A stretch of DNA of 64,000 nt, taken from contig NZ_MLHN01000003.1 in assembly GCF_001999285.1 (NCBI RefSeq), positions 124,001 to 188,000 on the forward strand, read 5' to 3'. Source of the DNA: Rodentibacter genomosp. 1 (GTDB taxonomy: Bacteria; Pseudomonadota; Gammaproteobacteria; Enterobacterales; Pasteurellaceae). The notes beneath the pieces were generated by a model that was given only the letters and a program-made list of their open reading frames with translations, ran no database searches and was not told the DNA's origin. Shown piece after piece: positions 3,293 to 59,609 of the stretch. Position 1 is the first letter of the stretch. Every line of letters begins with the position of its first letter. Position numbers and translations under genes: made by a program.

Positions 3293-5950
3293 TTACGCAT
3301 AGAGCGGATTGATACGCTCAACATTCAAACCGAATTTTGCAATAGCATCCGCAACAACTTGATTTGTTACAGTCCCCTCTTTAGCCAATTGAGAAAGGGC
3401 AGCAACAACGATATAACGCTCATCGACTTCAAAATGTTCACGTAAGTTTGCACGGCTGTCAGAACGACCAAAACCATCCGTACCTAATACGTGATAATGT
3501 TTCGTTGGCACAAAGGCACGGATTTGATCTGCATAACCTTTAATGTAATCCGTTGACGCCACAGTTGGTAAATCTGCAAGTACTTGTGCAACATAAGGGA
3601 TTCGTTGTTCTGAAGTTGGGTGTAACAAGTTCCAACGTGCAACATCATGGCCATCACGTGCCAATTCATTAAATGATGGTGCCGAGAAGACATCCGAAGT
3701 GACACCATAATCATTGGCAAGGATTTGTGCAGCTTCACGAACGTGACGCATAATCGCACCGGAGCCTAACAATTGAACGTGGCCTTTACCTTTACCTTCT
3801 ACCGTTTCAAATTTATATAAACCTTTGCGGATACCCTCTTCCGCACCTTCAGGCATTGCCGGTTGCTCTGTTATTTCATTCAATGTGGTGATGTAGTAGA
3901 ACACATCTTCTTGTTTTTCACCGTACATGCGTTGAATACCATCTTGAATGATTACAGCAACTTCAAAGGCAAATGATGGATCGTAAGTCACACAGTTAGG
4001 AATCACACCCGCTTGAATGTGGCTATGGCCGTCTTCGTGTTGTAAACCTTCTCCGTTTAAGGTTGTACGACCTGATGTCCCTCCAATCATAAAACCACGA
4101 GCCAATTGGTCGCCCGCTAGCCACATCATGTCACCCACACGTTGGAAACCAAACATTGAGTAATAGATGAAGAATGGAATCATTGGTTGATTATTCACCG
4201 AGTATGAGTTCGCTGCGGCTAACCAAGATGCTGTCGCACCCAATTCATTGATCCCTTCTTGTAATACTTGGCCATCTTTCGCTTCACGATAGTACGCCAC
4301 TAAATCACGATCTGAAGGCACATAATTTTGACCATGTGGATTGTAAATACCAATTTGACGGAACAAGCCTTCCATACCGAAAGTACGCGCTTCATCTGCA
4401 ATGATCGGCACAATTGTTTTACCAATATTTTTGTCTTTTAATAAGGTATTTAATACACGTGAAAATGCCATAGTGGTCGAAATACCACGAGGTTGAGCAT
4501 CCAATAAAGCGTTAAATTCATCTAATGCCGGAACTTGATATTCCACATCAAATTTCGATTTACGTGCCGGCACATAACCATCTAGTGCTTTACGCTGACC
4601 ATGCAAGTAATTATATTCTTCAGATCCTTCAGGGAATTTAATGTATTCAAGATTTTCAACTTGCTCGTCAGTTAATGGTAGTTGGAAATAATCACGGAAC
4701 CCCTTAAGGCTTTCGTAAGACATTTTTTTCGATTGGTGAGCAGTATTTTTACTTTCCGCTTCAGGAATTTTATAACCTTTCACTTGCTGCGCTAAAATCA
4801 CAACCGGTTTTGTTGCATTTTGAGCTTTAGCGTAAGCGGCATACAGTTTTTCAGAATCATGTGCACCACGACGTAACGCCCAAATTTCATCATCTGTCAT
4901 ATCGGCGACTAATGCAGCTGTTTCCGGATAACGACCAAAGAAATGTTCACGGACATAAGCACCATCTTTGGATTTGAAAGTTAAATAATCGCCATCGACC
5001 ACTTCCATCATTAACTGGGTTAATTTACCGGAAGTATCTTTCTCAAATAATTTATCCCAGTTACCGCCCCATAATACTTTAATCACTTCCCAACCGGCAC
5101 CGGTAAATAGTCCCTCTAATTCCTGAACGATTTTACCGTTACCATTTACCGGACCATCTAAGCGTTGTAAATTACAGCTTACGGTGAAAATGAGGTTATC
5201 CAAGCCTTCACGTGCAGCAAAGGTTAATGCACCTTTAGACTCAATTTCGTCCATTTCACCATCACCGAGGAAGGCATAGACTTTTTGGCTTTTCGTATCT
5301 TTTAAACCACGGTTATCTAAGTATTTTAAGAAACGGGCTTGATAAATTGCATTAACCGGGCCCAACCCCATTGACACAGTTGAGAATTGCCAGAATTCAG
5401 GCATTAATTTCGGGTGTGGATATGAAGATAATCCATCAACAAAGGCTTCTTGACGGAAATTATCCATTTGTTCTTCCGTTAGACGACCTTCTAAAAAAGC
5501 ACGGGCATACATCCCCGGTGCAGCGTGACCTTGGAAGAAAATTAAATCACCACCGTTTTTCTCAGTTGCGGCTTTAAAGAAGTGGTTGTAGCATACTTCG
5601 TACATGGTTGCCGCAGATTGGAAGGTAGAAATATGACCACCTAAGTCGAGATCTTTCTTCTGGCTACGTAAAACCATCGCAATCGCATTCCAACGCACCG
5701 CTGAACGAATACGACGTTCAATTTCGCGATTACCCGGATAAGCCGGTTGCTCAGATACCGGAATAGTATTCACATAATCCGTAGTCACGCCTGTTGGCAA
5801 CGAAACTCCGCTAGTACGCGCTTGACCGATTACTTGCTCAATGATGTATTGCGCACGCTCAATGCCTTCTTCACGAATCAAAGAATCTAATGATTGTAAC
5901 CAATCTTGCGTCTCGATTGGATCAACGTCATTTTTTAAAATCTCAGACAT
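3293..5950 (-). CDS. aceE: Pyruvate dehydrogenase E1, homodimeric type
   Basis: Thiamine-diphosphate-dependent E1 that decarboxylates pyruvate and reductively acetylates E2. The 885 aa are almost the same length as the E. coli enzyme (887). The ThDP/Mg motif begins with GDG at residues 229-231 (AFLGDGEMDEIE) and runs on to the conserved asparagine in CNLQRLDGPVNGNGKI. The C-terminal region keeps the expected GTDGFGRSDSRANLR. It is the first gene of the operon. The ATG at 5950 has AAGGAAAA about 6 nt upstream. Confidence 0.98.
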   Translation of the reverse strand: MSEILKNDVDPIETQDWLQSLDSLIREEGIERAQYIIEQVIGQARTSGVSLPTGVTTDYVNTIPVSEQPAYPGNREIERRIRSAVRWNAIAMVLRSQKKDLDLGGHISTFQSAATMYEVCYNHFFKAATEKNGGDLIFFQGHAAPGMYARAFLEGRLTEEQMDNFRQEAFVDGLSSYPHPKLMPEFWQFSTVSMGLGPVNAIYQARFLKYLDNRGLKDTKSQKVYAFLGDGEMDEIESKGALTFAAREGLDNLIFTVSCNLQRLDGPVNGNGKIVQELEGLFTGAGWEVIKVLWGGNWDKLFEKDTSGKLTQLMMEVVDGDYLTFKSKDGAYVREHFFGRYPETAALVADMTDDEIWALRRGAHDSEKLYAAYAKAQNATKPVVILAQQVKGYKIPEAESKNTAHQSKKMSYESLKGFRDYFQLPLTDEQVENLEYIKFPEGSEEYNYLHGQRKALDGYVPARKSKFDVEYQVPALDEFNALLDAQPRGISTTMAFSRVLNTLLKDKNIGKTIVPIIADEARTFGMEGLFRQIGIYNPHGQNYVPSDRDLVAYYREAKDGQVLQEGINELGATASWLAAANSYSVNNQPMIPFFIYYSMFGFQRVGDMMWLAGDQLARGFMIGGTSGRTTLNGEGLQHEDGHSHIQAGVIPNCVTYDPSFAFEVAVIIQDGIQRMYGEKQEDVFYYITTLNEITEQPAMPEGAEEGIRKGLYKFETVEGKGKGHVQLLGSGAIMRHVREAAQILANDYGVTSDVFSAPSFNELARDGHDVARWNLLHPTSEQRIPYVAQVLADLPTVASTDYIKGYADQIRAFVPTKHYHVLGTDGFGRSDSRANLREHFEVDERYIVVAALSQLAKEGTVTNQVVADAIAKFGLNVERINPLYA

Positions 5951-21530: not shown

Positions 21531-21643
21531 CCTATGGTAAAGATAAGGAAAAAACCTTGTTTTATGATTTTCAGCTGGTTATTTTCACAAATGCCGCTAT
21601 AATGGAGCGGAAATTTTTCAGTTCTTTAAAATCTGGTGGAATT

Positions 21644-22447
21644 ATGAATCCAATGTTAAATATCGCCATTCGTGCGGCACGAAGAGCGGGCAATGTCATT
21701 GCTAAAAATTACGAACGCCGTGATACTATCGAAGCAACGCAAAAAGGCATTAACGATTATGTGACCAGCGTAGATAAACTCGCTGAAGCTGAAATTATTG
21801 AGATTATCCGCAAATCTTATCCCGATCACACTATTATCACGGAAGAAAGCGGCGCAATTGAGGGAAAAGAAACTGATATACAATGGATTATTGATCCGCT
21901 AGACGGCACTCGTAATTTTATGAATGGTTTGCCACACTTTTCCGTATCAATCGCTATTCGTGTAAAAAACCGCACTGAAGTAGGCGTGGTTTATGACCCA
22001 ATACGTAACGAATTATTTACCGCTGTACGTGGTGAAGGCGCAAAATTAAACGAAGTACGCTTGCGTGTTGATGCCAAACGTGAACTTCAGGGCGCTATTC
22101 TTGCCACCGGATTCCCATTCAAACAACCAAAACTTATGCCAACCCAATTTGCCATAATGAATACCCTCATTGAAGATGCTGCGGATTTCCGCCGTACGGG
22201 TTCTGCCGCTTTAGATTTATGCTATGTAGCGGCAAGCCGTGTTGACGGTTATTTTGAAATGGGCATAAAAGCATGGGATTGTGCAGCCGGAGATTTAATC
22301 GTGCGTGAAGCCGGCGGCTTAATTTGCGACTTTGAAGCAGGTAATGGCTATTTACGCAGTGGAAATATCATTGCCGCCCCAACTCGAGTGTTAAAAGAAA
22401 TGATAAATAAAATCCGCCCTTGCTTAGGTGCTAATTTTAAAAATTAA
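21644..22447 (+). CDS. suhB: Inositol-1-monophosphatase family protein SuhB
   Basis: Inositol monophosphatase and component of Nus-factor antitermination complexes at rRNA operons. The 267 aa equal the E. coli length. Metal-binding motifs are EESGAI, DPLDGTRNF (about 84-92) and WDCAAGDLIVREAGG. The start at 21644 (MNPMLNIAIRAARRAGN) aligns with E. coli SuhB; a longer reading frame opens 49 codons earlier but is not supported. A TATAAT lies at 21598-21603, about 40 bp upstream, with no clear -35. An uptake-signal pair terminates it. Confidence 0.96.
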   Translation: MNPMLNIAIRAARRAGNVIAKNYERRDTIEATQKGINDYVTSVDKLAEAEIIEIIRKSYPDHTIITEESGAIEGKETDIQWIIDPLDGTRNFMNGLPHFSVSIAIRVKNRTEVGVVYDPIRNELFTAVRGEGAKLNEVRLRVDAKRELQGAILATGFPFKQPKLMPTQFAIMNTLIEDAADFRRTGSAALDLCYVAASRVDGYFEMGIKAWDCAAGDLIVREAGGLICDFEAGNGYLRSGNIIAAPTRVLKEMINKIRPCLGANFKN

Positions 22448-22464
22448 AAAACATTGAAAAAGAC

Positions 22465-22503
22465 AACCGCACTTTTCACATCTCAAAGTGCGGTTATTTT
22501 TAT
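22465..22503. terminator. Inverted uptake-signal pair after suhB
   Basis: AACCGCACTT and AAGTGCGGTT face each other across 11 nt, followed by ATTTTTAT. It serves convergent suhB and the XRE gene and marks the left limit of the accessory island. Confidence 0.85.
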
Positions 22504-22542
22504 CTTATTTTTTAATATATTTGGAAACAAGGATATTTTCCC

Positions 22543-22893
22543 TTAGCTGTTTTTTCTATTTCCCCATCGGATTAAACGCTCAACCAAATCCAACAACTCA
22601 CTGCGTTGATCATTCTCTAATTCTTGCAGTAAACGTTCCAATCTGCGGGCTTGATCCATTGTGCGATTGCTACTGTCAATCACAAGATCAGCAACTTCAC
22701 AATGAAAAATCTCTGATAGCTCTACCAAACGAAGAATTGTCGGCACGGTTTTCCCCCTTTCCATTCGCGATACCGCATCATTACTCATATCCAAAATTTC
22801 CGCTAATTGCGCCTGCGTTAATCCGGCAGCTTGACGATATTTCGTAATGGCACGACCAACAGTAAGCATTAATTCTTGTTTCTTGTCCGGCAT
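22543..22893 (-). CDS. XRE-family helix-turn-helix regulator
   Basis: 116 aa. A Cro/C1-type HTH at about residues 11-65 (ITKYRQAAGLTQAQLAEILDMSNDAVSRMERG, PTILRLVELSEIF) precedes a helical C-terminus rich in charged residues (RRLERLLQELEND), possibly for dimerisation. It is divergent from the HTH-membrane fusion gene across a 205-bp region. That region contains TATACCTA at 22961-22968 and again at 23072-23079, possible binding sites. It probably regulates itself and the island operon (inference). No enzymatic domain is present. Confidence 0.8.
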   Translation of the reverse strand: MPDKKQELMLTVGRAITKYRQAAGLTQAQLAEILDMSNDAVSRMERGKTVPTILRLVELSEIFHCEVADLVIDSSNRTMDQARRLERLLQELENDQRSELLDLVERLIRWGNRKNS

Positions 22894-23098
22894 TGCTTTC
22901 CCCTACATTGAAAGCAGCAATGATAAACCTTGACTTTCTCACATAAACAGCTTTTAATTCTATACCTAGGCTTAAAAAATCTAATTTAAATATAATAGCG
23001 AAAAAAACAAAAAAATTTTCGCTTGCGACACAACCTGACGCACAAGATCGGAACTTCTTTGCTAAATTATATATACCTATCCACAGCGATTTAAAAAA
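22894..23098. promoter_or_regulatory. Divergent control region of the island
   Basis: A 205-bp AT-rich region between the XRE gene and the HTH-membrane gene. It holds two copies of TATACCTA (22961-22968, 23072-23079), a TATAAT at 22991-22996, and an inverted repeat AGCGAAAA/TTTTCGCT (22997-23004, 23016-23023). No consensus -35 and no Shine-Dalgarno before 23099 were seen. Confidence 0.4.
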
Positions 23099-24007
23099 AT
23101 GAAAAAGAATAACCAACTTGCACAACGTTTAGCACTAATATTAAGCAAACTTAATCAAGGGGTTCGTCTTGATGTTCAGCAATTATCTGAAGAATTTGGT
23201 GTTTCATTACGCACCATTCAGCGTGATATCAACCGCTTTGATTTTCTCGAATGGGAAGAAAAAGGCGCAAGATATTACAAAATAGGACAGCTTGCAGGAG
23301 GAGCCGTTGCAGGGGCAGCTGCCGCTTATGCTGTTTACGGTGGAGTAATGGCACTTGCTGCTGCTTCAACTGGCACGCCTATTGCCGCATTAGCTGGGGC
23401 TGTAGCTCATAATGCAGCAATGGCAGCAATTGGAGGCGGATCACTTGCAGCTGGTGGATTTGGTATGGCAGGAGGAGCAATGGTACTTGGTGCAGTAGTT
23501 GCCGCACCTATTATTGCTATTGCAGGTTTAGGATTTAATATGCATGCAGAAAAAGCCAAACAAAATGCTGTTGCTTATAAAGAAGAAGTCAATCAAGCTG
23601 TTGAGAAGATGAAACTTTCTATTGAACATTTAAATAAAACAAGTAGTTATGTCACAGATTTAATTGTTGAAATTAAAAGAATTGATGGTCAATTTAATCA
23701 ATATTTTGACAAATTAAAATCAATTAATACGTTACTTAAAGATGGTACTTTAGATTTTGATTCGTTAAAAGACTCTATTTTACTTACCATCAATAATGGT
23801 TACATTCTTGCTGCTATCCTGACAGATATTATCACCACTCCACTATTTAAAGTGAAGAAAAATTCCTTTGATAAAATGGTCATGGATGGTGATCAACCTG
23901 TAATGGAATTAGATGAAAATGGATTACAAATTTTAAATAAAGAAGAAATGAAAACTGCTGTTCTAAAAGGTTCTAATGAAGAAATATCTAAAGCATTAAA
24001 ATCTTAA
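23099..24007 (+). CDS. HTH domain fused to Gly/Ala-rich membrane segment, unknown function
   Basis: 302 aa, not assigned to a characterised protein. Residues about 7-60 are a DeoR/WYL-type winged helix (QLSEEFGVSLRTIQRDINRF). Residues 65-155 are strikingly Gly/Ala-rich and hydrophobic (GGAVAGAAAAYAVYGG, ASTGTPIAALAGAVAHNAAM, IGGGSLAAGGFGMAGG), with two or three potential membrane helices of glycine-zipper type. From 160 there is a long charged helix (HAEKAKQNAVAYKEEVNQAVEKMK) and an alpha-helical C-terminal domain. From general knowledge, such STG...GGGSLAAGG segments recur in uncharacterised bacterial membrane proteins; a DNA-binding head on one is unusual. It is the first gene of an island operon; no Shine-Dalgarno is visible. 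A role as a membrane-tethered sensor or effector is speculation. Confidence 0.75.
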   Translation: MKKNNQLAQRLALILSKLNQGVRLDVQQLSEEFGVSLRTIQRDINRFDFLEWEEKGARYYKIGQLAGGAVAGAAAAYAVYGGVMALAAASTGTPIAALAGAVAHNAAMAAIGGGSLAAGGFGMAGGAMVLGAVVAAPIIAIAGLGFNMHAEKAKQNAVAYKEEVNQAVEKMKLSIEHLNKTSSYVTDLIVEIKRIDGQFNQYFDKLKSINTLLKDGTLDFDSLKDSILLTINNGYILAAILTDIITTPLFKVKKNSFDKMVMDGDQPVMELDENGLQILNKEEMKTAVLKGSNEEISKALKS

Positions 24008-24030
24008 TAGCTCTCTAAATTAATAATAAA

Positions 24031-24059
24031 AACCCGATTATAAATTTTTTAATCGGGTT
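24031..24059 (+). terminator. Hairpin between the first two island genes
   Basis: A perfect 10-bp stem AACCCGATTA with its complement and a 9-nt AT loop. No U-tract follows on the plus strand, so it may act as an mRNA-processing or stabilising hairpin and not as a full terminator. AAGGAG for the next gene follows directly. Confidence 0.5.
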
Positions 24060-24078
24060 ATATCAAAGGAGTATAACT

Positions 24079-24867
24079 ATGGCATTTATTATTGCTGGTG
24101 TAGCTGCAGTTGCAGCTGGATATGGTCTAAAAAAAGTATTTGATGATAAAAATAAATCTGACATATCAAAAACGTATAATACTTTAAATGAATTAGGTAA
24201 AATCTTATTAGATTTGGGAGAAGATAGCACCAAATACATAAAGTTATCTAAAAGATTATCTGAGATAATAAATAAAGAAATATATACAGGGAACGATGAA
24301 AGAATATCAAAATTTGTTAGTTATTTCTCTAACAGAGATGATGTTTCTGAAAAAAATATTACTTTTGCTGTATGGGGGAGTGAAACCTTAAATTCATTGT
24401 CATTTATGCCTCTTATGCCTCCTAAAGAATGGGTTGATGAAAATGGACTAGAAGATATTTCAGTTGATAAATGGGCAAAGAAATGTATGGGATATAGAGA
24501 AATTTCTGATTCAGATATAAAAAAGCTTGCGAAATATATAGATAAGATTGAAATTATAAAAAAACAGATAGAGCAAGTTTATGAATATGTTAAATTTTAT
24601 TCTAATTATCTAACTATAGTATTAACACGCAATGATTTAGATAATCATAAAGAAAGTATCGTAGAAGCGATTCATCAACGGCTCTGTGCTATGGATAGCT
24701 TAGTTGGAAGTCTCCCTCCAATAGATCTTTTAATTGAAGATAATATTGGCATAGCAGAGAATGCGATGAAAATGCGTATCCATCTAAATAATATGAACAT
24801 ATCAGTAAATAATTTTTCAAAAGAACTTTTTGAAAATTTACATATGGATAAATTATCTGATAAATAA
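24079..24867 (+). CDS. Membrane-anchored helical protein, unknown function
   Basis: 262 aa, family not recognised. The first 17 residues (MAFIIAGVAAVAAGYGL) form a short Gly/Ala-rich membrane helix, echoing the hydrophobic segment of the preceding gene. A Lys-rich flank and a mostly alpha-helical soluble domain follow, with coiled-coil-like stretches at about 155-190 and 215-255. No catalytic motif is seen. AAGGAG lies 7 nt before the ATG. It probably forms a membrane complex with the product of 23099-24007 (inference from adjacency and shared composition). Composition is strongly AT-rich, with no uptake signal. Confidence 0.7.
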   Translation: MAFIIAGVAAVAAGYGLKKVFDDKNKSDISKTYNTLNELGKILLDLGEDSTKYIKLSKRLSEIINKEIYTGNDERISKFVSYFSNRDDVSEKNITFAVWGSETLNSLSFMPLMPPKEWVDENGLEDISVDKWAKKCMGYREISDSDIKKLAKYIDKIEIIKKQIEQVYEYVKFYSNYLTIVLTRNDLDNHKESIVEAIHQRLCAMDSLVGSLPPIDLLIEDNIGIAENAMKMRIHLNNMNISVNNFSKELFENLHMDKLSDK

Positions 24868-24893
24868 ATCATCTATCTATAATAGAGGTAAAA

Positions 24894-25376
24894 ATGGAAA
24901 ATTTAGTTATAAATAAAGAATTTGAATGGAATAAAGAGTTAGAAAAAACGGTTATTAATTCATTAGCTACCACATTTGGATTAGACTTCCTTCTTTTTGA
25001 GGATAAAAAAGGTGGAAATGTTGATACTATTTATAATGTAAGAAAAGGAACTTGGGCAACAGAAGAAGAAAAGCAAAAGTATGATAATAGAGAAGACTAT
25101 AATCCTGAAATTTATCATAAACATGAGAACTATATTAAGAATAATAAAGAAATGTCTAATAATAAGAAGAATGGAGAAGTGGTAGATGCATACATAGGAG
25201 AGAATGTCCCAGTAAATGCAAAAATAGATCAAGATCATATAGTCTCAGCCAATGAGATACATAATGATCCAGGTAGAATATTGGCGGAGCTAAAAGGGGA
25301 AGATCTTGCAAATAGAGATGAAAACCTTGTTCCAGTAAGTAGCTCATTAAATAGATCTAAACAAGATATGTCATGA
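24894..25376 (+). CDS. HNH-like nuclease domain, N-terminal part of a split gene
   Basis: 160 aa. The C-terminal half looks like an HNH endonuclease core: DQDHIVSANEI (Asp114, His115), then NRDENLVPVSSSLNRSK with Asn144, Asn153 and Lys156. The N-terminal 45 residues (EWNKELEKTVINSLATTFGLDFLLFEDKKGG) are of unknown fold. GAGG lies 6 nt before the ATG. The frame ends in ATGTCATGA, overlapping the next frame by 4 nt. One extra A there (TCAATGAG) would fuse the frames smoothly (SKQDMSMSEF), so this is probably the 5' third of one larger gene. Alternatively the two are translationally coupled partners. Cleavage activity is inference. Confidence 0.65.
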   Translation: MENLVINKEFEWNKELEKTVINSLATTFGLDFLLFEDKKGGNVDTIYNVRKGTWATEEEKQKYDNREDYNPEIYHKHENYIKNNKEMSNNKKNGEVVDAYIGENVPVNAKIDQDHIVSANEIHNDPGRILAELKGEDLANRDENLVPVSSSLNRSKQDMS

Positions 25377-26556
25377 GTGAATTTATTAGTAAACTAGATG
25401 AAAAAATAGTAAATAAGAAGAAGGAGCTAGAGAAAATTAAGAATAGTCTAAATCAACTAGAGAATGAAACACCCCGTAATCAACATAAAATTAATGAAAT
25501 ACAAAAGAAAGTAAGAAATGCTGAAAAATATATAGAAAATCACCAAAAATTAAAAGAAGATCCAACTAAGGCATTAGAAGCAGATAAAAAGGCAAGAGAG
25601 ATAATTAACAGAGAGATTAACTGGAGTTATTACACTAGTTCAAAATTTTTCAAAAATACAGCAAAAGAAGCCGGAAAAAAGGGTTTAAAAATGGGTGTTA
25701 GACAAGCCTTAGGCTTAGTATTAGATGAAATTTGGTTTGAATTAAGAGAACAAATTCCTAAACTTTATCAAAAATGTAAAAACAAATTTAATATACAGAT
25801 TTTTCTTAATTCTATTCAAGAAACACTAAAAGGTATCTGGAAAAGAATTCAAGAAAGATTTAAAGATTTAAAGATTTACTTAATTCCTTTAAAGATAGTG
25901 TATTTGCAGGTGCATTATCAAGTGTTACTACAACATTACTTAATTGTTTTCTTACTACTGAAAAGCTGATCGGTAAAATGATCCGTGAGATATGGAATAG
26001 TTTAGTCGGCGTAATCAAGTTGGTTTTCTTTAATCCTAATAGACTGGCCATGGGAGATTTGCTTAAAGAAGCAATGCGATTACTAGGTTTAGGGGTATAT
26101 ACACTTGTTGGTACTTATATTCATACACACTTAAATACCCTATTGAACTTTCCATTAGGAGCAGAACTTTCATCTTTCGTTAGTGCAATAGTAACAGGCA
26201 TATTAAATTTAGGATTTGTTTATTTCTTAGAACATAGTGAGCTAACAAACAAAGTTTGGACATTTCTAAATCAATTTAAACCTAAACTATTAATTGAACA
26301 AGGTATTGATTATATGCGGGAAGTCAATGCTGAATTAGATCGTTATCTTCTTGAATTATCTAAAATTGAGTTCAATATGAACCCATTAGAATTAAAGGAG
26401 TTCTCAAACAATCTAGATACGGCTAACAGCGAATTAGAGAAACATTTTATTTTAAAGGCAGAAGCCAATCGTAGAGGAATTGAATTACCTTATGACTCAG
26501 ATAATCTCGAAAGTGTAAGAAATTGGTTGAAAAAGATAGGCAGCAATAAGAAATAA
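25373..26556 (+). pseudogene. Frameshifted coiled-coil/membrane continuation of the HNH-like gene
   Basis: The first frame (25373-25969) encodes a coiled coil (about 10-75) and a basic helical region, then derails into a hydrophobic nonsense tail after GIWKRIQERFKDL. The downstream frame (open well before the ATG at 25978, to 26556) continues the same protein: DLLNSFKDSVFAGALSS, then two or three membrane helices (GLGVYTLVGTYI, SSFVSAIVTGILNLGFVYFL) and a helical C-terminus. The break coincides with three tandem AAAGATTT units. Removing one unit joins the frames into a 391-residue product. No Shine-Dalgarno precedes 25373 or 25978. It is either inactivated or in an OFF state through slippage. 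Confidence 0.75.
25854..25877 (+). repeat. Three tandem AAAGATTT octamers at a frameshift
   Basis: Exact 3x8-bp direct repeat. Because 8 is not a multiple of 3, each gain or loss changes frame. Two copies (or five) restore one continuous reading frame between the two halves of the gene; three copies, as here, break it. Confidence 0.9.
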
Positions 26557-26819
26557 TGGAAGTATCATCATTCCCCTGTACAGCCTGTGGCAAATGCTGT
26601 CGTCGCGTTAATTTAAGCAAGCAAACGAGTTTTCTTGATCGTGGTGATGGTGTTTGCCAATATTTTAATGAGAAAACTAATTTGTGTAATATTTATGAAA
26701 CTAGACCACTTGTTTGTCGAGTTGAGGATTACTATAAAACATATTTATCTCATCTTTATGAATGGGATGAATTTGTTAAAGTTAATTTAGAAATTTGTAG
26801 AAATTTTAATAATGATTAA
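26556..26819 (+). CDS. YkgJ-family cysteine-cluster protein
   Basis: 87 aa, small soluble protein with the cysteine cluster of the YkgJ family (putative zinc/iron-binding): Cys8-x2-Cys11-x2-Cys14-Cys15, then Cys34, Cys44 (CNIYETRP) and Cys54 (LVCR), plus Cys81. It overlaps the preceding stop as TAATG, so it is translationally coupled to the HNH-like/membrane gene and belongs to the same operon. Biochemical function of the family is not established; here it may be a metal-binding accessory of the island system (inference). Confidence 0.85.
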   Translation: MEVSSFPCTACGKCCRRVNLSKQTSFLDRGDGVCQYFNEKTNLCNIYETRPLVCRVEDYYKTYLSHLYEWDEFVKVNLEICRNFNND

Positions 26820-26891
26820 TTTCAAACATAGAATAATTTTTTAATATATCCTCTCAGATTATTTATATCTTCCTAAACAAGGTATTTTATT

Positions 26892-27684
26892 ATGTCAAAA
26901 CAAAAAATTATAAAAAACAATATAATAAAATTATTTAATAAAATCATTTTATCATTAATTGTTATCAATGCCATTATAGTCGGTGTGGATACTTACCCTG
27001 CTCTATCTTATAAAATGGGTAATTATTTAACATTAATTAGCAATATTTGTTTAACTATTTTTGTTATAGAAATAATATTAAAAATTATTTTTATGCAAAA
27101 AAACTTTTTTAAAAACTGTTGGAATATTTTTGATTTTATAATTATCTTTATTTCTATACTTGCTGAATTTTCTCCGCTTTCCATTTTTAGAATTATTCGT
27201 GCCATTCGTATTCTACGTTTTTTATCTGTAATTCCTAAAATGAGGGTTATTACTCAAGTATTATTTAAATCAATTCATTCAATGCAAGGGATTGCAATTT
27301 TATTATGTATCGTATTATATGTGTATGCTGTATTAACTACACATTTATATAGTGATATATCCCCAAAATATTTTGGTAGTTTAACAGAAAGTTTTTATAC
27401 TCTATTTCAAATTATGACTTTTGATAGTTGGTCATCAGGTATCGTTCGACCAATACTAAGCAGCTCCCCTTACGCTTGGATAACATTCATTAGTTTCTTA
27501 CTTATTGCAAGTTACATTGTCCTAAATATTGGCGATTGGAATTATTGTTGATTGTATTACAGAAATCAAAGAATATGAGATGAATTTAAAAATTCAAGAA
27601 AAAGAAGATAAGCTCTTAGGAAAAATGAATATATTAGAAAATGAAATTAAAGAGTTAAAAGAACTTATTAAAAAAGGCTGTTAG
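26892..27684 (+). pseudogene. Bacterial voltage-gated cation channel (NaChBac type), frameshifted in S6
   Basis: A six-helix ion-channel subunit. S1-S3 lie within residues 15-92. S4 has regularly spaced arginines 100, 103, 106 and 109 (FRIIRAIRILRF). The pore loop has filter TFDSWSS (176-182), where NaChBac-type channels have TLESWxx. S6 starts ITFISFLLIASYIVLNI. The frame stops at 27551 (219 aa). One extra G at about 27531 explains this: without it translation continues IAIGIIVDCITEIKEYE into a leucine/isoleucine heptad coiled coil ending at 27684, giving 263 aa, as expected for tetrameric bacterial channels. AAGG precedes the ATG. The truncated form lacks most of the gate and assembly domain and is probably non-functional. 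Confidence 0.85.
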
Positions 27685-27772
27685 CTCCAAAGTAGAATAT
27701 AGCAATTAAAATTCCTTTAACTTAGTCAACCACTTAATTTTTTATTTTCCTCTGTGTTGAGATTCTATAAAA

Positions 27773-27826
27773 AACCGCACTTAGCCTTGAAATAAGAAAT
27801 TCTTAGACAAAGTGCGGTCATTTTTT
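27773..27826. terminator. Inverted uptake-signal pair at the right edge of the island
   Basis: AACCGCACTT at 27773 and AAGTGCGGT at 27810, followed by CATTTTTT. It separates the convergent channel gene and HAD phosphatase gene. No uptake signal was seen between this pair and the one at 22465. Confidence 0.75.
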
Positions 27827-27834
27827 ATCTGTTT

Positions 27835-28620
27835 TTATTCTGGGAAAATTTCTTCCAAAATTAGGGCTAGTCCATCTTCATTGTTGGTTGCGGTGACACG
27901 ATTGGCTGCTTGTTTGATTTCTTCGGGGGCATTGCCCATTGCGACACCCAAACCTACATTTTCCAACATATCCAAATCATTAAAATTATCGCCAAAGGCG
28001 ATGGCTTCTTCAATTTTGACCTGAAAATAATCCTCTAAGAAACGCACGGCACGGCCTTTTGTGGCAGATTGATGCATGACTTCTAAGAAATTCTGGTGAG
28101 AACGGCAGATACTTAAATGTGGAAAAGCCGCTTTTAAACGGTTTTCAACTTCAATGATTTCATCTGTTTCACCAATAATTTGAATTTTATGCGGAGAGTA
28201 AAGCGCACTTTCATCATAAGGATCAATTTGAATTTTCGTCACACTCTGCTCGAAAATAACCCATTTATTATTTATATCACGAGCCACACAATCATCATGA
28301 GTGTAGTAATTCACAGCTAATTCGGGATACTGTGCCAATAGTTGGTTAATTTGTTGAATATCTTCCACTGAAATATTCACGGAATAAAGTACATTAAGCT
28401 GACGATCTAAAATCAGCGCACCACTAAATGCGACAATGATATTGTAATGCTCAATTTGCTTGGCATAAGGCAAAATGCCTAGAGGAGAGCGGGCAGAAAT
28501 AGGAACAAAAGGAATGCCCTTACGTGTAATACGCTGAATAGCGGCTAAGGTTCTTGGGGTGATTTTATGATCTGAGGTTAACAAGGTTCCATCAAAATCA
28601 CTGAATACAGCTTTATACAT
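27835..28620 (-). CDS. Cof-type HAD-IIB sugar phosphatase
   Basis: 261 aa. HAD phosphatase with motif I DFDGTLLTSDHKITP (nucleophile Asp8, acid Asp10) and motif IV FGDNFNDLDML near residue 211, with the C2-type cap in between. Probably dephosphorylates sugar or nucleotide phosphates; the precise substrate is unknown. It lies 12 nt downstream of ybeY with GGAG before the ATG, apparently the last gene of phoH-ybeY-this gene. Confidence 0.9.
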   Translation of the reverse strand: MYKAVFSDFDGTLLTSDHKITPRTLAAIQRITRKGIPFVPISARSPLGILPYAKQIEHYNIIVAFSGALILDRQLNVLYSVNISVEDIQQINQLLAQYPELAVNYYTHDDCVARDINNKWVIFEQSVTKIQIDPYDESALYSPHKIQIIGETDEIIEVENRLKAAFPHLSICRSHQNFLEVMHQSATKGRAVRFLEDYFQVKIEEAIAFGDNFNDLDMLENVGLGVAMGNAPEEIKQAANRVTATNNEDGLALILEEIFPE

Positions 28621-28632
28621 ACTTACTCCAAA

Positions 28633-29097
28633 TTATTTTTCCGATAAATAAGGGTCGGCAAAACCTAAATTTTGCATAATCTGTGTTTCCAGGCTTTCCA
28701 TTTCTTCGGCTTCATCGTCTTCAATATGATCATAGCCCAATAAATGTAAACTACCATGCACCACCATATGCGCCCAATGTGCCATAAGCGGTTTTCCTTG
28801 TTCTTTGGCTTCACGCTCCACCACTTGGCGACAAATCACTAAATCGCCTAATAAAGGTAATTCAACTGCATCAGGACATTCAAAAGGAAAGGAAAGCACA
28901 TTTGTAGGACGATCTTTTCCACGGTAAGTGAGATTAAGTTCATGACTTTCTGCTTCATCCACAATACGCACAGTCATTTCCATATTCTCGCTTTCCGGTT
29001 GAACCGCTGCCGTTGCCCATTGAATAATTTGTTGTTCTGTTGGTAAATCTTGTATATTTTCTGTGGCGATCTGTAAATCAATTAACATACTACTCAT
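28633..29097 (-). CDS. ybeY: Endoribonuclease YbeY
   Basis: Zinc-dependent RNase involved in 16S rRNA maturation and ribosome quality control. The length is 154 aa. The H-x3-H-x5-H zinc motif appears as [15 protein letters not shown]. It starts 2 nt after phoH; GGAGAA in the phoH end serves as ribosome-binding site. An alternative ATG lies three codons in. The phoH-ybeY linkage is conserved across bacteria. Confidence 0.97.
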
Positions 29098-53328: not shown

Positions 53329-53357
53329 AAGTGCGGTCGAAAATGACTGCACTTTTT
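53327..53357 (+). terminator. Imperfect inverted uptake-signal pair after lpxL
   Basis: AAAAGTGCGGTC and GACTGCACTTTTT (one mismatch) flank a 6-nt loop with a U-run. The stem begins inside the lpxL stop codon. Confidence 0.75.
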
Positions 53358-53400
53358 GATACACTCTTTCGCAATTTTTTCATATTTAACGAATAACCAA

Positions 53401-55299
53401 ATGACAGCCAATTATTCAGCTCAAGAAATTACCGTATTAAAAGATCTCGAACCGGTGAAAATCCGCCCGGGTATGTACACTGACACCACCCGTCCAAACC
53501 ACCTTGCCCAAGAAGTCATTGATAACAGTGTGGATGAAGCCCTTGCCGGATTCGCCACAAAAATTGAAGTGATTTTGCACGCTGATCAATCGCTTGAAGT
53601 CATTGATAACGGTCGGGGAATGCCCGTGGATATTCACCCGACAGAGGGCGTGTCAGGCGTGGAAGTGATTTTAACCAAACTTCACGCCGGTGGTAAATTT
53701 TCCAATAAAAACTATGAATTCGCCGGTGGTTTGCACGGCGTAGGGATTTCTGTGGTGAATGCCCTTTCCGAGCGAGTGGATATTCAAGTCAAACGCAATG
53801 GCGAAGTATATAAAATCGCTTTTGAAAATGGGCTAAAAGTGGAAGAATTGGAAGTGGTCGGCACCTGCGGCAGACGCACTACCGGTACGACCGTTCACTT
53901 CAAACCTAACCCGAAATATTTCGATAGTGCAAAATTTTCCGTCAGTCGCTTACGCCATTTATTGCGTGCCAAAGCCGTGTTATGTTCAGGGCTGGAAATT
54001 AAATTCACGGATAAAATCAACAACACACAAGATGTATGGCTATATGAAGACGGTTTGTCCGACTATCTTATTGAAGCTGTCAACGGTTATGAAACCTTGC
54101 CGGAAAAACCTTTCGTGGGCGAATTTAAAGGCAATAATGAAGCGGTCAGTTGGGCATTATTATGGCTGCCTGAGGGCGGAGAATTGATCGGTGAAAGCTA
54201 TGTAAATTTGATCCCAACTATTCAAGGCGGCACACACGTCAATGGTTTACGCCAAGGTTTGCTTGATGCGATTCGTGAATTTTGCGAATTTCGCAATCTG
54301 CTCCCTCGTGGTGTTAAGCTCACCGCTGATGATATTTGGGATCGTTGTGCTTATATTCTCTCGCTCAAAATGCAAGATGCCCAATTTGCCGGACAAACCA
54401 AAGAACGCTTATCATCTCGTCAAAGTGCAGTCTTTGTCAGCGGCGTTTTAAAAGATGCCTTCAGCCTATGGCTTAACCAAAATGTCCAAGATGCGGAAAA
54501 ACTGGCAGAAATGGCGATCAGCTCTGCCCAACGCCGTTTGCGTGCCGCCAAAAAAGTGGTGCGGAAAAAACTGGTAAGCGGCCCGGCATTACCGGGTAAA
54601 TTAGCAGATTGTGGTTCACAAGATCTGGAAAAAACTGAATTATTTTTAGTGGAAGGGGATTCTGCGGGCGGCTCGGCAAAACAAGCCCGAGATCGGGAAT
54701 ATCAGGCAATCTTGCCGTTACGGGGAAAAATTTTGAACACCTGGGAGGTTTCACCGGAACAGGTTCTCGGTTCCACAGAGATTCACGATATCGCGGTGGC
54801 ATTAGGCATCGATCCGGACAGTGATGATCTGTCCCAACTACGCTACGGAAAAGTCTGTATCCTCGCTGATGCCGACTCAGACGGTTTACACATTGCGACA
54901 TTACTTTGTGCCTTATTCTTACGTCATTTCCCCAAATTAGTACAAGAGGGACACGTTTATGTGGCAATGCCCCCTCTTTACCGCATTGATTTAAATAAAG
55001 AAGTGTTCTACGCCTTGGATGAAGGGGAAAAAGAGGCAATTTTAGATCGCCTGAAAAATAAAAAAGGTAAACCAAATGTTCAACGTTTTAAAGGTTTGGG
55101 TGAAATGAATCCTTCTCAATTACGGGAAACCACCATGGATCCGAATACCCGCCGTTTGGTGCAATTAACCTACAATTCAGAAGAAGAACAAGGTACAGAA
55201 ACCTTAGAATTGATGGATATGTTGTTGGCGAAAAAACGTTCCGAAGATCGAAAAAATTGGCTACAAACCAAAGGCGATCAAGTGGATTTAACGGTGTAA
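53401..55299 (+). CDS. parE: DNA topoisomerase IV subunit B
   Basis: ATPase subunit of topoisomerase IV, 632 aa. The GHKL ATPase has [22 protein letters not shown] and [14 protein letters not shown]. The TOPRIM domain has [17 protein letters not shown] and [13 protein letters not shown], and [11 protein letters not shown] is typical of ParE. The ATG at 53401 is chosen by homology; a longer frame starts within the upstream hairpin. Followed by parC after 13 nt. Confidence 0.98.
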
Positions 55300-55312
55300 T
55301 GGGAAAATTTAT

Positions 55313-57571
55313 ATGAGTACAAATATCAACTATGAAGGCATTGAGCAAATGCCGCTCCGCACTTTTACCGAAAGTGCCTATCTTAATTATTCCATGTACG
55401 TCATTATGGATCGTGCATTGCCTTTTATTGGCGATGGCTTAAAACCCGTACAACGCCGTATTGTCTATGCCATGTCAGAACTTGGCTTAAATGCCACCGC
55501 AAAATACAAAAAGTCCGCACGGACGGTGGGGGATGTGTTGGGTAAATTCCACCCTCACGGGGATTCCGCTTGCTATGAAGCCATGGTATTGATGGCCCAA
55601 CCCTTTTCTTATCGTTATCCATTGGTGGACGGTCAAGGTAACTGGGGTGCGCCTGATGATCCCAAATCTTTTGCGGCAATGCGTTATACGGAATCACGCC
55701 TGTCCAAAATTTCTGAAATTTTACTGTCCGAACTCGGACAAGGCACGGTAGATTATCAACCGAACTTTGACGGTACGTTAGAAGAACCGCAATATTTGCC
55801 TGCACGTTTACCCCATATCTTACTTAACGGTACAACAGGGATTGCGGTAGGAATGGCAACGGATATTCCCCCTCATAATATTAATGAAATTGCCGATGCT
55901 GCCGTTTTATTACTTGATAGTCCCAAAGCTAATCTTGATGATCTATTAAACATTGTACAAGGGCCGGATTTTCCAACTGAAGCAGAAATTATTTCGCCAA
56001 AAACGGAAATTCGTAAAATTTACGAACAAGGCCGTGGCTCGATAAAAATGCGTGCGACATGGAAAAAAGAAGACGGGGAAATTATTATTTCCGCCCTGCC
56101 ACACCAAGCTTCGCCCTCTAAAATCATTGCGCAAATTGCCGATCAAATGACGGCGAAAAAATTGCCGATGGTGGAAGATATTCGTGATGAAGCCGATCAC
56201 GAAAACCCGATTCGTATTGTCATCGTGCCTCGTTCCAATCGGGTGGATACCGATGCCCTCATGGCACATTTATTCGCCACCACCGATCTGGAAAAAAGCT
56301 ATCGGGTGAATATGAATATGATTGGGCTTGATCATAAACCGGCAGTAAAAGGGTTAGTGCAAATTCTCAATGAATGGCTACATTTCCGCCGCACTACGGT
56401 GACACGCCGTTTGCAATATCGTCTTGATAAAGTGCTTTCCCGTCTGCATATTTTAGAAGGATTAATGATTGCCTTCTTAAATATTGATGAAGTCATTGAG
56501 ATTATTCGCCATGAGGATGATCCCAAAACAGAACTCATGGCACGCTTTAACTTAAGTGATGAGCAAGCCGATGCGATTTTAAACTTACGCTTGCGTCACT
56601 TAGCAAAATTAGAGGAGCACCAACTTCGTGCCGAACAAAATGAGTTGGAAAAAGAGCGGTCAAATTTAGAAGCGATTTTAGGCTCTGAACGTCGTCTCAA
56701 TACGCTCATTAAGAAAGAAATCCAAGAAGATGCTAAGAAATACGCCAGTCCACGGATGTCACAATTAGTCGAACGTGAAGAAGCCAAAGCGATTTCAGAA
56801 AGCGAAATGACACCGGCAGAACCGGTTACTGTTATTTTGTCGGAAATGGGCTGGGTACGCTGTGCCAAAGGGCATGATATTGATCCAAAAGCATTAAGTT
56901 ATAAAGCCGGTGATGGTTATCGCGCTCATGCTTGTGGTAAAAGCAACCAAGCTGCCGTATTTATTGACAGCACCGGACGCAGCTATGCCGTTGATCCGCT
57001 CACCCTGCCCTCTGCCCGCTCACAGGGCGAACCACTTACAGGTAGATTAACTCTGCCTGTTGGTGCCACTATTGAGCATGTCATCATGGAAGCGGATCAA
57101 CAGGAATTATTGATGTCATCTGATGCGGGCTATGGATTCATTTGTAAATTTGAAGATCTAATTGCACGTAACAAAGCAGGAAAAGCCTTGATTTCTTTAC
57201 CAGAAAATGCCAAAGTGTTGCCGCCAAAAATTCTGTCGGATTCAAGCGCACTTCTCGTTGCCTTGACTTCAGCCGGCAGAATGTTAATTTTCCCGGTACA
57301 AGATTTACCGGTATTATCAAAAGGTAAAGGCAATAAAATCGTGAGTATTTCTGCGACTCATGCAAAAGATCGTAGCGAATTATTAGTGAAATTATTGCTC
57401 ATTTCAGATCAAGCCGCTCTTGAGTTCCACTCCGGCAAACGAAAAATGACATTAAAGCCAGAAGATCTGCAAAAGTTCCGCACAGAACGAGGCAGAAAAG
57501 GATCGCAACTCCCCCGAGGCTTACACAGCAATGTGGATATTACGGTGATTGATCCTGAACACAACACATAA
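55313..57571 (+). CDS. parC: DNA topoisomerase IV subunit A
   Basis: DNA cleavage/religation subunit, 752 aa. The active-site Tyr lies in [11 protein letters not shown]. The quinolone-resistance region reads [12 protein letters not shown] with the wild-type Ser85 and Glu89 (homologous to H. influenzae Ser84 and Glu88), so no known fluoroquinolone target mutation is visible there. The C-terminal beta-pinwheel follows. TGGGAAAA precedes the ATG. Confidence 0.98.
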
Positions 57572-57604
57572 ATTTTCCAAAACAAACTAAGAGGAGAATA
57601 CTTC

Positions 57605-58819
57605 GTGAATATTGTTTTCGATACTTATCAAACACTGGCACTCGCCAGCCTTGTTTTATTATTAGGCTATTTTTTAGTAAAACGCATTAGCGTACTGAAA
57701 AACTTTAATATTCCTGAACCGGTTGTCGGCGGTTTTATTATCGCTATCGCATTGACAATTTGGTATCAAATAGATGGTACTTCATTTACCTTTGAGAAAA
57801 GCCTACAAACCACAATGATGTTAGTTTTCTTCTCATCAATCGGTTTAAGTGCAAATTTTGCCCGTTTAATTAAAGGTGGAAAACCATTAATTATTTTTCT
57901 TTTTGTTGCCGCGGCGTTAATTTTCTTCCAAAACGTGATCGGTATTGCTGGCACTCAGATTTTAGGTATTGACCCTGCCTATGGTTTATTAGCGGGCTCC
58001 GTCACCTTAACCGGTGGTCATGGTACCGGTGCGGCTTGGGCTGAAACCTTCATCAAGGAATTTAACTTACCGGCGGCAACAGAAATTGCCATGGCTTGTG
58101 CTACATTCGGTTTAGTTTTCGGCGGTATTATTGGCGGCCCGGTAGCACGTTTCTTGCTAAATCGTCAAAAACAAGGGGAAAACCCGGAAAATGATGAAGT
58201 AGATGATGTCCAAGAAGCCTTTGAGCATCCAACCTACCAACGTAAAGTCAATGCACGTTCTATCATTGAAACCATTGCAATGATGTCTTTCTGTCTATTG
58301 ATCGGTCAATATCTAGACAGCGTGACAAAAGGTACGGCATTACAATTACCAACCTTCGTTTGGTGTTTATTTACCGGCGTTATCATTCGTAATGCATTAG
58401 CACATATCTTCAAATTCCGTGTGGCAGATTCAGCTATTGATGTTCTCGGCAGTGTGGGATTATCTATCTTCTTAGCCATTGCCTTGATGTCATTAAAACT
58501 TTGGGAATTAGCCGGCCTTGCAACAGATGTATTAATTATCCTAGCAATTCAAGTTGCCTTTATGGCGTTCTTCGCTATTTATGTGACTTATCGTGCCATG
58601 GGTAAAGATTACGATGCGATCGTACTCAGTGCGGGACACTGTGGTTTCGGTTTAGGTGCAACACCAACTGCAGTAGCAAATATGCAAGCAATCACTAGCC
58701 GTTTCGGTGCGTCTCACAAGGCTTTCTTAATCGTACCAATGGTGGGTGCATTTTTTATTGACTTAATTAATGCCTCACTATTAAAAGTTTTCTTAGCTGT
58801 GGTGACTTATCTACACTAA
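57605..58819 (+). CDS. gltS: Sodium/glutamate symporter
   Basis: Na+-dependent glutamate carrier of the inner membrane, 404 aa with about ten membrane helices in two inverted repeats. Typical motifs are PEPVVGG, SVTLTGGHGTGAAWAETF and, in the second repeat, LSAGHCGFGLGATPTAVANMQA. The start is GTG at 57605 with AGAGGAGA 7 nt upstream. It lies 33 bp after parC. Confidence 0.95.
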   Translation: MNIVFDTYQTLALASLVLLLGYFLVKRISVLKNFNIPEPVVGGFIIAIALTIWYQIDGTSFTFEKSLQTTMMLVFFSSIGLSANFARLIKGGKPLIIFLFVAAALIFFQNVIGIAGTQILGIDPAYGLLAGSVTLTGGHGTGAAWAETFIKEFNLPAATEIAMACATFGLVFGGIIGGPVARFLLNRQKQGENPENDEVDDVQEAFEHPTYQRKVNARSIIETIAMMSFCLLIGQYLDSVTKGTALQLPTFVWCLFTGVIIRNALAHIFKFRVADSAIDVLGSVGLSIFLAIALMSLKLWELAGLATDVLIILAIQVAFMAFFAIYVTYRAMGKDYDAIVLSAGHCGFGLGATPTAVANMQAITSRFGASHKAFLIVPMVGAFFIDLINASLLKVFLAVVTYLH

Positions 58820-58827
58820 TAATGTGT

Positions 58828-58860
58828 AAAAAAGAGCGGTAAAATTGACCGCTCTTTTTA
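58828..58860 (+). terminator. Terminator after gltS (variant uptake-signal hairpin)
   Basis: AAAAAAGAGCGGT and ACCGCTCTTTTT pair around 7 nt with a U-run. It uses the AAGAGCGGT variant of the uptake signal. Confidence 0.9.
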
Positions 58861-58909
58861 TTTTGTAACAATTGTATAAATCTGTTTTTTGGTTAGATTG
58901 TAGGAACAC

Positions 58910-59027
58910 ACTGCGTGTGTCCGCTATAAAATCAAATTATTTCAATATGTTAAAATTCGGACACACTCAGTGTGTCCCTACATATCGTTGAAATTTCTGT
59001 TTTTGTGCATTTGCTACATAATCCCCT
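58910..59027. repeat. Dispersed intergenic repeat, copy A
   Basis: Two internal dyads (GGAACACACTGCGTGTGTCC at 58913; GGACACACTCAGTGTGTCC at 58959) flank CAAATTATTTCAATATGTTA. The right end TTTGTGCATTTGCTACATAA matches the ends of copy C near metC. Non-coding, between gltS and the DUF2301-like gene. Confidence 0.65.
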
Positions 59028-59030
59028 ATT

Positions 59031-59537
59031 TTAAACCTGATATTTTGTTTTATCGCCAATATCAAAATGCAATGGCATTCGCCATTTTTGAATGGCAAGT
59101 AACAACAGTAATACCCCTACAATCATTGAGAAGATCCGAGTCAGTATTCCGCTTTCAAATACCCAAACAAACCAGAGTATCGCCACAAAAATAGGCTGTA
59201 AATTTAATAATGGCACTCGGAAACAAAAATATTCTTTAAAACAAAGCCCACCTAAGGTGACTAATGCACCGCCTAGTGCCAGTTCGTGCCAACCTAAAAT
59301 GAAGCAAACCAGAGCTAACCAAGTAGCAAATTGAAAGATTAAACGAAAATGTTTGAGATAAATATGCAAAGATGAGGCACAACAGGTCGCAGCAATTAAA
59401 ATCGTGATTTCTGCCAAACTTGGCAACCAAGTCAATAGCAAAATACCAAAAGCGGCGACAACAAACCCGGTTCGATAAATTATCACTGTGATGTTATCCC
59501 AAATATCCATTGGGGACTGAATATGTGGATCAGCCAT
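59031..59537 (-). CDS. DUF2301-like integral membrane protein
   Basis: 168 aa with about six hydrophobic helices (TGFVVAAFGILLLTWLPSL, FIGRIFSMIV-like C-terminal helix) and a conserved GGLCFKEYFCF segment, resembling the DUF2301 family. Function unknown. A strong GGAGG lies 7 nt before the ATG. It is downstream of mpl's convergent neighbour region and is separated from mpl by an uptake-signal pair. Confidence 0.75.
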   Translation of the reverse strand: MADPHIQSPMDIWDNITVIIYRTGFVVAAFGILLLTWLPSLAEITILIAATCCASSLHIYLKHFRLIFQFATWLALVCFILGWHELALGGALVTLGGLCFKEYFCFRVPLLNLQPIFVAILWFVWVFESGILTRIFSMIVGVLLLLLAIQKWRMPLHFDIGDKTKYQV

Positions 59538-59567
59538 TTTTCCTCCTTTCTAGTCAAATAATAGAAC

Positions 59568-59609
59568 AAAAGTGCGGTTAAAAAACACATGATTTTCTAA
59601 CCGCACTTT
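59568..59609 (-). terminator. Inverted uptake-signal pair after mpl
   Basis: AAAAGTGCGGTTA and TAACCGCACTTT around 17 nt, just after the mpl stop on the minus strand. Confidence 0.75.

Follow-up and report, generated by a model that had tools for sequence, protein, structure and literature searches.

A likely decayed cassette of a conserved operon with a membrane-tethered HNH-like protein in Rodentibacter genomosp. 1

Introduction

Zorya and Kiwa couple membrane-located sensing to action on DNA, and Zorya includes an HNH-type protein, ZorE. Shango and Bunzi are defence systems that include TerB-domain proteins (PMC10952713; all papers are cited here from excerpts), and Shango is a validated antiphage system (PMC10250203). 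A further TerB-containing defence system, Dionysus, has been reported (van den Berg et al. 2025 preprint; PMC12926258) and blocks early vesicle formation by jumbo phages (PMC13282480). BrxR-family proteins, which have a WYL domain, act as repressors of defence islands (PMC9122601). The PADLOC database also defines the candidate systems PDC-M40 (M40A and M40B) and PDC-M09 (M09A and M09B), two names that were not found in the literature searched. In this study, we analysed a stretch of 64,000 nucleotides (hereafter the window; contig NZ_MLHN01000003.1, positions 124,001 to 188,000) from the 2.35 Mb draft assembly, in 50 contigs, of Rodentibacter genomosp. 1. An AT-rich island at positions 22543-27684 of the window had been proposed, from the letters alone, to encode a membrane and nuclease system of the abortive-infection type.

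Our results make it likely that the island derives by decay from a cassette of a conserved operon, which encodes a membrane-tethered HNH nuclease and in its intact form is probably antiphage.

Results

To locate the genes of the island, its open reading frames (ORFs) were compared with PADLOC and Pfam models and with intact relatives, chiefly that of Mesocricetibacter (L030; L and G numbers denote loci and genomes). An ORF check found every ORF named in the original prediction in place. The operon genes read as follows, all on the plus strand.

23099..23283, plus strand: N-terminal helix-turn-helix (HTH) remnant of a WYL-domain regulator, about 61 codons (tblastn, 72% to residues 1-64 of the L030 WYL protein)
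23283..24007, plus strand: PDC-M09A-like Gly/Ala-rich membrane protein, residues about 120-359 only (PADLOC 1.8e-24; 62% to L030 residues 120-359)
24894..25376, plus strand: M40B piece 1, N-terminal domain with the HNH motif (PDC-M40B positions 19-193, 6.1e-17; L030 residues 2-159)
25373..25969, plus strand: M40B piece 2, coiled coil, after the first frameshift (PDC-M40B 170-285, 3.5e-9; L030 residues 160-323)
25864..26556, plus strand: M40B piece 3, membrane domain, after the second frameshift (PDC-M40B 349-426, 2.5e-5; 63% to L030 residues 319-543)
26556..26819, plus strand: YkgJ-type CxxCxxCC protein, intact (PF03692 7.6e-8; 77% to L030)

The first of these ORFs (23099-24007) had been read as a single HTH-Gly/Ala membrane protein, but it consists of two gene fragments joined by a deletion at 23283. 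When aligned with L030 DNA, window positions 22604-23283 lie on 4087-4793, and the alignment then resumes from 23283 on 6624. The window is short of 1,831 bases; in L030 these encode the rest of the WYL regulator, a small protein, TerB and the first part of M09A. Alignments to two loci of the same genus that carry other cassettes (L159 and L163) also end at base 23283, so that three relatives mark the junction. Because residues 1-64 of a WYL regulator are followed directly by residues 120-359 of M09A at this shared stop, the fusion protein is a decay product. The PADLOC match to PDC-M09A covers the C-terminal part only, the N-terminal third with its invariant Gly being lost, and no second copy of M09A or M40B was found in the source genome.

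The HNH-like, coiled-coil and membrane architecture described in the original prediction is real, but not as single ORFs: it belongs to one gene of about 550 codons spread over three reading frames. PDC-M40B (PDLC04630) matches three consecutive ORFs of the window (24894, 25373 and 25978) in profile order. By tblastn, Mesocricetibacter residues 2-159, 160-323 and 319-543 fall in three frames with none missing between them, and we therefore place two frameshifts in this gene. In-frame homology of piece 2 stops at about 25870, and the listed ORF of piece 3 begins at 25978. M40B is a single ORF of 500-590 residues in 76 of 80 named loci from other genomes. It is also in pieces in Vreelandella lionensis (L065) and Snodgrassella alvi (L070), and decay of the system may therefore extend beyond the window.

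Two other explanations of this anatomy were considered. The window set could be a working new variant in which the HTH-membrane fusion and the split nuclease pieces act as separate proteins. The fusion ORF is indeed open for 302 codons, extends almost to the natural M09A C-terminus and retains the conserved upstream element, and the XRE, 24079 and CxxCxxCC genes are open as well. We nevertheless regard this as very unlikely, given the single M40B ORF of most loci, the loss of the N-terminal third of M09A, and the finding in one cassette of two M40B frameshifts, a frameshift in the neighbouring ion-channel gene and a deletion, which together point to decay. The frameshifts could instead be sequencing errors of a draft in 50 contigs, with the deletion alone being real. 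This is quite unlikely in our view; the deletion by itself takes most of the WYL gene, TerB and a third of M09A, and the channel gene is also split in a same-genus draft (G125), although this last argument is weak. Under the decayed-cassette reading, the operon in the window is very probably dead.

To define the intact operon, M09A and M40B were searched in 140 Pasteurellaceae genomes, the window's own included. M09A was detected in 14 genomes (10 at E <1e-19, among them the window's own) and M40B in six, again counting the source genome. In the five other M40B genomes the protein is encoded by one ORF of 543-552 residues, which stands beside an M09A-type gene in four. In one of these four (G013, L033), the M09A-like neighbour is only a distant relative (PADLOC E 0.009; own model 1.5e-17), and a CxxCxxCC ORF was not seen. 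In the fifth genome, that of Muribacter (G099), WYL-TerB-M09A and M40B-CxxCxxCC-channel lie at the ends of two contigs. The order found in Pasteurellaceae (e.g., L028 and L030) is a divergent XRE gene, then WYL, one or more small proteins, TerB, M09A, M40B and CxxCxxCC; no TerB is seen in L029. Pfam confirmed the WYL domain in the L028 regulator, and TerB scored 24.2 bits (cut-off 24.4) in the intact relatives scanned.

The operon was then followed in contigs of GTDB-species genomes, by a scan that needed two short exact peptide patterns and is hence incomplete. It returned 98 M40B relatives, of which 80 were kept as named loci; these span Gammaproteobacteria, Acetobacter, Firmicutes, Bacteroidota, Treponema, Desulfovibrio and Helicobacter-like bacteria. 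Neighbours were counted on the same strand within 3.5 kb of M40B, for the 79 loci with an M40B ORF and for the 41 whose flanks both exceed 3.5 kb. M09A was found in 71/79 loci (39/41 with both flanks), CxxCxxCC in 61/79 (31/41), TerB in 21/79 (9/41) and WYL in 24/79 (16/41), the last rising to 34/79 (24/41) with a second-round WYL model. M09A stands upstream of M40B in 30 loci and downstream in 38. The original prediction had proposed co-occurrence in unrelated genomes as a check of the system; for the M09A-like and HNH-like proteins, this association extends over several phyla. In a class-wide survey, M09A was present in 6 of 369 genomes, the window's own included; among the neighbourhoods of the other five, M40B and CxxCxxCC accompany it in L201 and an M09B-like gene in L199, and the remaining three have neither. 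Database records label M40B as ‘cobalamin adenosyltransferase’ or ‘ATPase’, and M09A as ‘chemotaxis protein’.

We next examined residue conservation and predicted structures. Among 67 aligned M40B homologues, H114, N143 and N152 are present in all and D113 in 66. The surrounding region is modelled as strand-loop-strand-helix with a predicted local distance difference test (pLDDT) score of about 97 (strands 110-114 and 144-148, helix 149-155). A DH...N...N pattern on a strand-strand-helix fold is the motif rule of the HNH superfamily. From this motif and the predicted secondary structure, the N-terminal domain of M40B appears to carry an HNH signature; it is followed by a long coiled coil and then by hydrophobic helices. 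M09A is modelled as two long helices flanking a Gly/Ala-rich hydrophobic segment (pLDDT <50 at 125-190). An alpha-pore-forming toxin fold was considered for M09A and set aside, the structure matches being non-significant (best E 0.09; AhlB/SmhB at least 0.25). Profile matches of M09A to viral fusion proteins (to E 0.0006) and MakB (E 0.0064) fall mostly in the coiled coil and were taken as chance.

M40B was also found on 64 plasmid records, 34 of them from Klebsiella, and two plasmid neighbourhoods were read. On the conjugative plasmid p1 of Vibrio echinoideorum, TerB, M09A, M40B and CxxCxxCC follow in order after a gene annotated as WYL; our own WYL model missed this gene and matched only another WYL gene further away. 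An AbaSI-type restriction gene lies about 5 kb before the annotated WYL gene. On the Klebsiella plasmid, a restriction endonuclease is encoded about 7-8 kb off, and WYL is a 117-residue piece beside an IS3 transposase. In phages, M40B occurs in seven records, which belong to four Aeromonas jumbo phages (LAh10, D3, D6 and D9; about 260 kb). In LAh10, the single phage read, M09A is followed by M40B (L120:4973-7569), and no WYL, TerB or CxxCxxCC match was found in the 13.6 kb read. Viral contigs, scanned with short exact peptide patterns, gave one relative. With this single relative and the seven records of the four Aeromonas jumbo phages, the reading of the operon as a mobile phage gene was rejected.

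The cysteine-cluster protein noted in the original prediction was confirmed as a CxxCxxCC-domain protein (PF03692). In a Lachnospiraceae locus (L091:10533-11831), one ORF encodes both CxxCxxCC (residues 2-77) and M09A (residues 87-422), which argues for a direct functional link between the two. In another locus (L037:6344-10902), WYL, M09A, BnzB (4.5e-137), CxxCxxCC and a 222-residue protein form one run, and a 136-residue protein occupies the M40B slot between M09A and CxxCxxCC in L036 and L038. M09B is present in L034/L035. The replacement of M40B by BnzB or by the 136-residue protein suggests a modular family. We tentatively propose, at somewhat below even confidence, that M09A and the YkgJ-type CxxCxxCC protein form the constant core of phylum-spanning membrane immune operons, in which the effector slot would be swapped (M40B with its HNH domain, BnzB or the 136-residue protein; M09B with M09A alone), and TerB and WYL/XRE would serve as sensor and switch. 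No single named system would yet cover this family, and one jumbo phage has its own M09A and M40B pair.

The same genes could alternatively form a toxin or interbacterial-competition module, with an HNH effector and a small immunity protein. HNH and membrane domains are also built into bacteriocins and polymorphic toxins, the small CxxCxxCC gene lies directly 3' of M40B as an immunity gene would, the fusion protein of the window weakly matches a binary toxin subunit (NCBIfam, E 0.0034), and the weak fold matches of M09A include pore-forming toxins. However, those fold matches are not significant. An immunity protein would be expected to evolve fast, but CxxCxxCC is kept across phyla and in L091 is joined to M09A in one protein. 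The neighbourhood includes WYL regulators and defence-type genes, and no secretion or delivery gene was recognised among the neighbouring Pasteurellaceae ORFs, inspected by eye outside any systematic annotation. We therefore consider a toxin module unlikely and retain an antiphage role as the probable function of the intact operon.

The insertion site was compared within the genus. The suhB/HAD-phosphatase interval (window 22447-27835 and L158-L174) is an accessory hotspot. Both flanks were found in 15 genomes of the genus and lie close together on one contig in 12, the window's included; in G120, G121 and G130 they are on different contigs. Of these 12 sites, two hold almost nothing (about 0.3 kb), five carry a single gene of 466-476 codons, two an ABC-transporter cluster and three a WYL cassette. 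Besides the window's, the WYL cassettes are those of G125 (XRE, WYL, a HerA-like protein, a weakly Leo-like protein and a split channel) and G124 (WYL and Leo-like proteins). In L163:1206-8418, at the same site, WYL heads a cassette that encodes two large proteins with LeoA/LeoBC matches (4.6e-15 and 1.1e-11). The window and G125 share 87% DNA identity over 21591-23283 at the left edge, and 79.5% over 26919-27675 and 85% over 27767-28682 at the right edge. As these edges are shared and the middles unrelated, cassettes may have been exchanged by recombination in their shared ends.

The remaining features of the island and its edges are the following.

22466..22494, no strand: inverted uptake-signal pair behind suhB (signal scan and relatives)
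22543..22893, minus strand: XRE-type regulator, intact, divergent (Pfam HTH_3 6.9e-14)
23027..23039, no strand: GACACAACCTGAC, putative operator-like element upstream of the WYL gene (alignment)
24079..24867, plus strand: 262-residue protein with one N-terminal hydrophobic helix (27% over residues 3-97 of L029 M09A, E 4e-5)
26892..27551, plus strand: voltage-gated-type ion channel, transmembrane part, truncated by a frameshift (PF00520 7.7e-35; 77% to L032 channel residues 2-215)
27529..27684, plus strand: C-terminal tail of the channel in another frame (76% to L032 channel residues 215-263)
27774..27818, no strand: inverted uptake-signal pair at the right edge (signal scan)

The divergent XRE regulator was confirmed by its Pfam domain, and a similar gene stands at the same place in L028, L029, L030, L031, L034, L035 and L159. 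The GACACAACCTGAC element shows at most two changes across nine aligned regions (the window and eight relatives), four of which have a GACA-N5-TGTC inverted repeat there.

ORF 24079, described as a partner with an N-terminal membrane helix, does have a single such hydrophobic helix. Its sequence suggests that it is probably a divergent, short M09A paralogue without the Gly-rich centre. Searches of the remaining 139 Pasteurellaceae genomes and 368 class genomes at E 0.001, and of plasmids at E 0.01, found no relative.

The ion channel of the original prediction has a genuine PF00520 domain but is no intact core member of the operon: it is frameshifted at about 27530 and is only a neighbour. It stands behind M40B in one genome only, that of Muribacter (L032 and L039, the same contig). 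For close channel relatives (46-48%) in G138, G087 and G056, the 14-15 kb read hold no core gene. The channel of draft G125, from another species of the genus, is also split, in reverse orientation (L159:9591-10393), beside the HerA-like and weakly Leo-like cassette. We thus reject the proposed membrane depolarisation by the channel as part of the system, since its relatives stand without core genes in three genomes and by a different cassette in one. In the loci L190:6563-7728, L191:5631-7964 and L192:6503-7683, channel relatives adjoin a protein of about 105 residues with W.CDG..LKPK.GA..SNTW-like repeat units, and the two may form a separate pair.

The island had also been delimited by its composition and its lack of uptake signals. 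It is AT-rich as described: over 24008-27684, the G+C content is 0.280, compared with a minimum of 0.335 in 103 overlapping windows of the same size elsewhere in the 64,000 nucleotides. The AAGTGCGGT uptake signal occurs 37 times in the window (0.50 expected), with inverted pairs at 22466/22486 and 27774/27810 and none between. This signal-free stretch is not unusual: a longer one spans 53329-59570 (6,241 bases), and when 37 sites were placed at random 5,000 times, a gap of at least 5,288 bases arose in 88% of the trials. Foreign origin was therefore not deduced from the missing signals, and AT-richness is the stronger mark of the island. The pairs are located as described. Several relatives whose site carries different cargo, or is without any, also have the left pair behind suhB (e.g., G126 and G128), and this pair is therefore probably the terminator of the flanking gene and not a bound of the island.

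Discussion

The kind of system proposed in the original prediction is supported by the PADLOC matches, the co-occurrence of M09A and M40B, the restriction genes on plasmids and the hotspot location. Its interpretation of the window does not hold in other respects: the operon copy there is no longer intact, decay produced the HTH-Gly/Ala protein, the channel does not belong to the core, and ORF 24079, whose co-occurrence with the M09A-like and HNH-like proteins had been named as a check, is an orphan apart from its weak likeness to M09A.

We propose that, in the intact operon, WYL and XRE would keep expression repressed, in line with the action of BrxR-family regulators on defence islands and with the kept upstream element. 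On infection M09A, with TerB where present, may sense or perturb the inner membrane and then release the membrane-tethered HNH nuclease of M40B, which would cut DNA that enters at the membrane or lies close to it. The putative metal-cluster CxxCxxCC protein would act directly with M09A.

Several results weigh against this interpretation. No Pfam nuclease family matched the intact M40B proteins scanned, neither these nor the window ORFs had a Pfam HNH match, the M40B model had no significant PDB fold match, and the HNH assignment is one of motif and predicted secondary structure. The M09A model likewise gave no significant fold match. TerB and WYL accompany a minority of M40B loci, many of them with short flanks. 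A comparison of gene neighbourhoods counts in favour of the interpretation. At 1e-8, 226 PADLOC families, among them type IIG restriction-methylases, SspE and WYL proteins, were matched by 133 neighbour proteins (of 184 selected from 27 loci), and 12 by 61 control proteins (35 from the window). This comparison is crude, as families and not proteins were counted and the control was Pasteurellaceae chromosome only; among the families shown, more than two proteins were found only for WYL (7 and 5 members) and mad2 (4), and the WYL neighbours probably include regulators of the operon itself. Most families matched one or two proteins, and on all these counts the enrichment is supporting evidence only. 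Two other PADLOC candidates, PDC-M63AB and PDC-S04, gave no defence in a native-host test, according to the excerpt of PMC12409345, and antiphage function is therefore not to be taken for granted. No phage-resistance experiment on the operon was found in the literature searched.

An antiphage role of the intact operon would join two separate PADLOC candidates and the BnzB of Bunzi in one modular family, assign a function to the YkgJ-type CxxCxxCC protein and add a membrane-tethered HNH nuclease to immunity. The annotations of M40B and M09A noted above would be corrected. The window also illustrates that a deletion can counterfeit a new domain architecture, one that can pass for a novel protein.

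The operon can finally be compared with the described systems. Zorya and Kiwa models have no match in the nine window ORFs, and the likeness is one of mechanism only. No paper describing the whole operon was found among the literature matches listed, the gene content of Dionysus being outside the comparison; an overlap with Dionysus, likened here by TerB only, may exist. Shango shares a TerB-like component but has an ATPase and a helicase, neither of which was found by Pfam in ten proteins of intact relatives. TerB itself has no Pfam match in the window ORFs. Bunzi shares the TerB association (PMC10952713), and its BnzB fills the M40B slot of L037; in the nine window ORFs BnzA has no match, and BnzB has a single negligible one (E 0.095) in a coiled coil. 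With the BrxR-family repressors the operon has in common an HTH and WYL protein heading a defence cassette (PMC9122601), of which the window keeps the HTH remnant only. PDC-M40 is matched through M40B in the window and in intact relatives, but M40A (PDLC04629) is absent from all eight genomes tested, the window's own included. PDC-M09 is matched through M09A in the window and relatives, with no M09B among the nine window ORFs. The operon differs from both in bringing M09A and M40B together with CxxCxxCC and TerB, the latter two having no PADLOC match in the copies scanned. The set as a whole fits no definition of PDC-M40, PDC-M09, Bunzi or Shango, and its parts are PADLOC candidates drawn from two systems.

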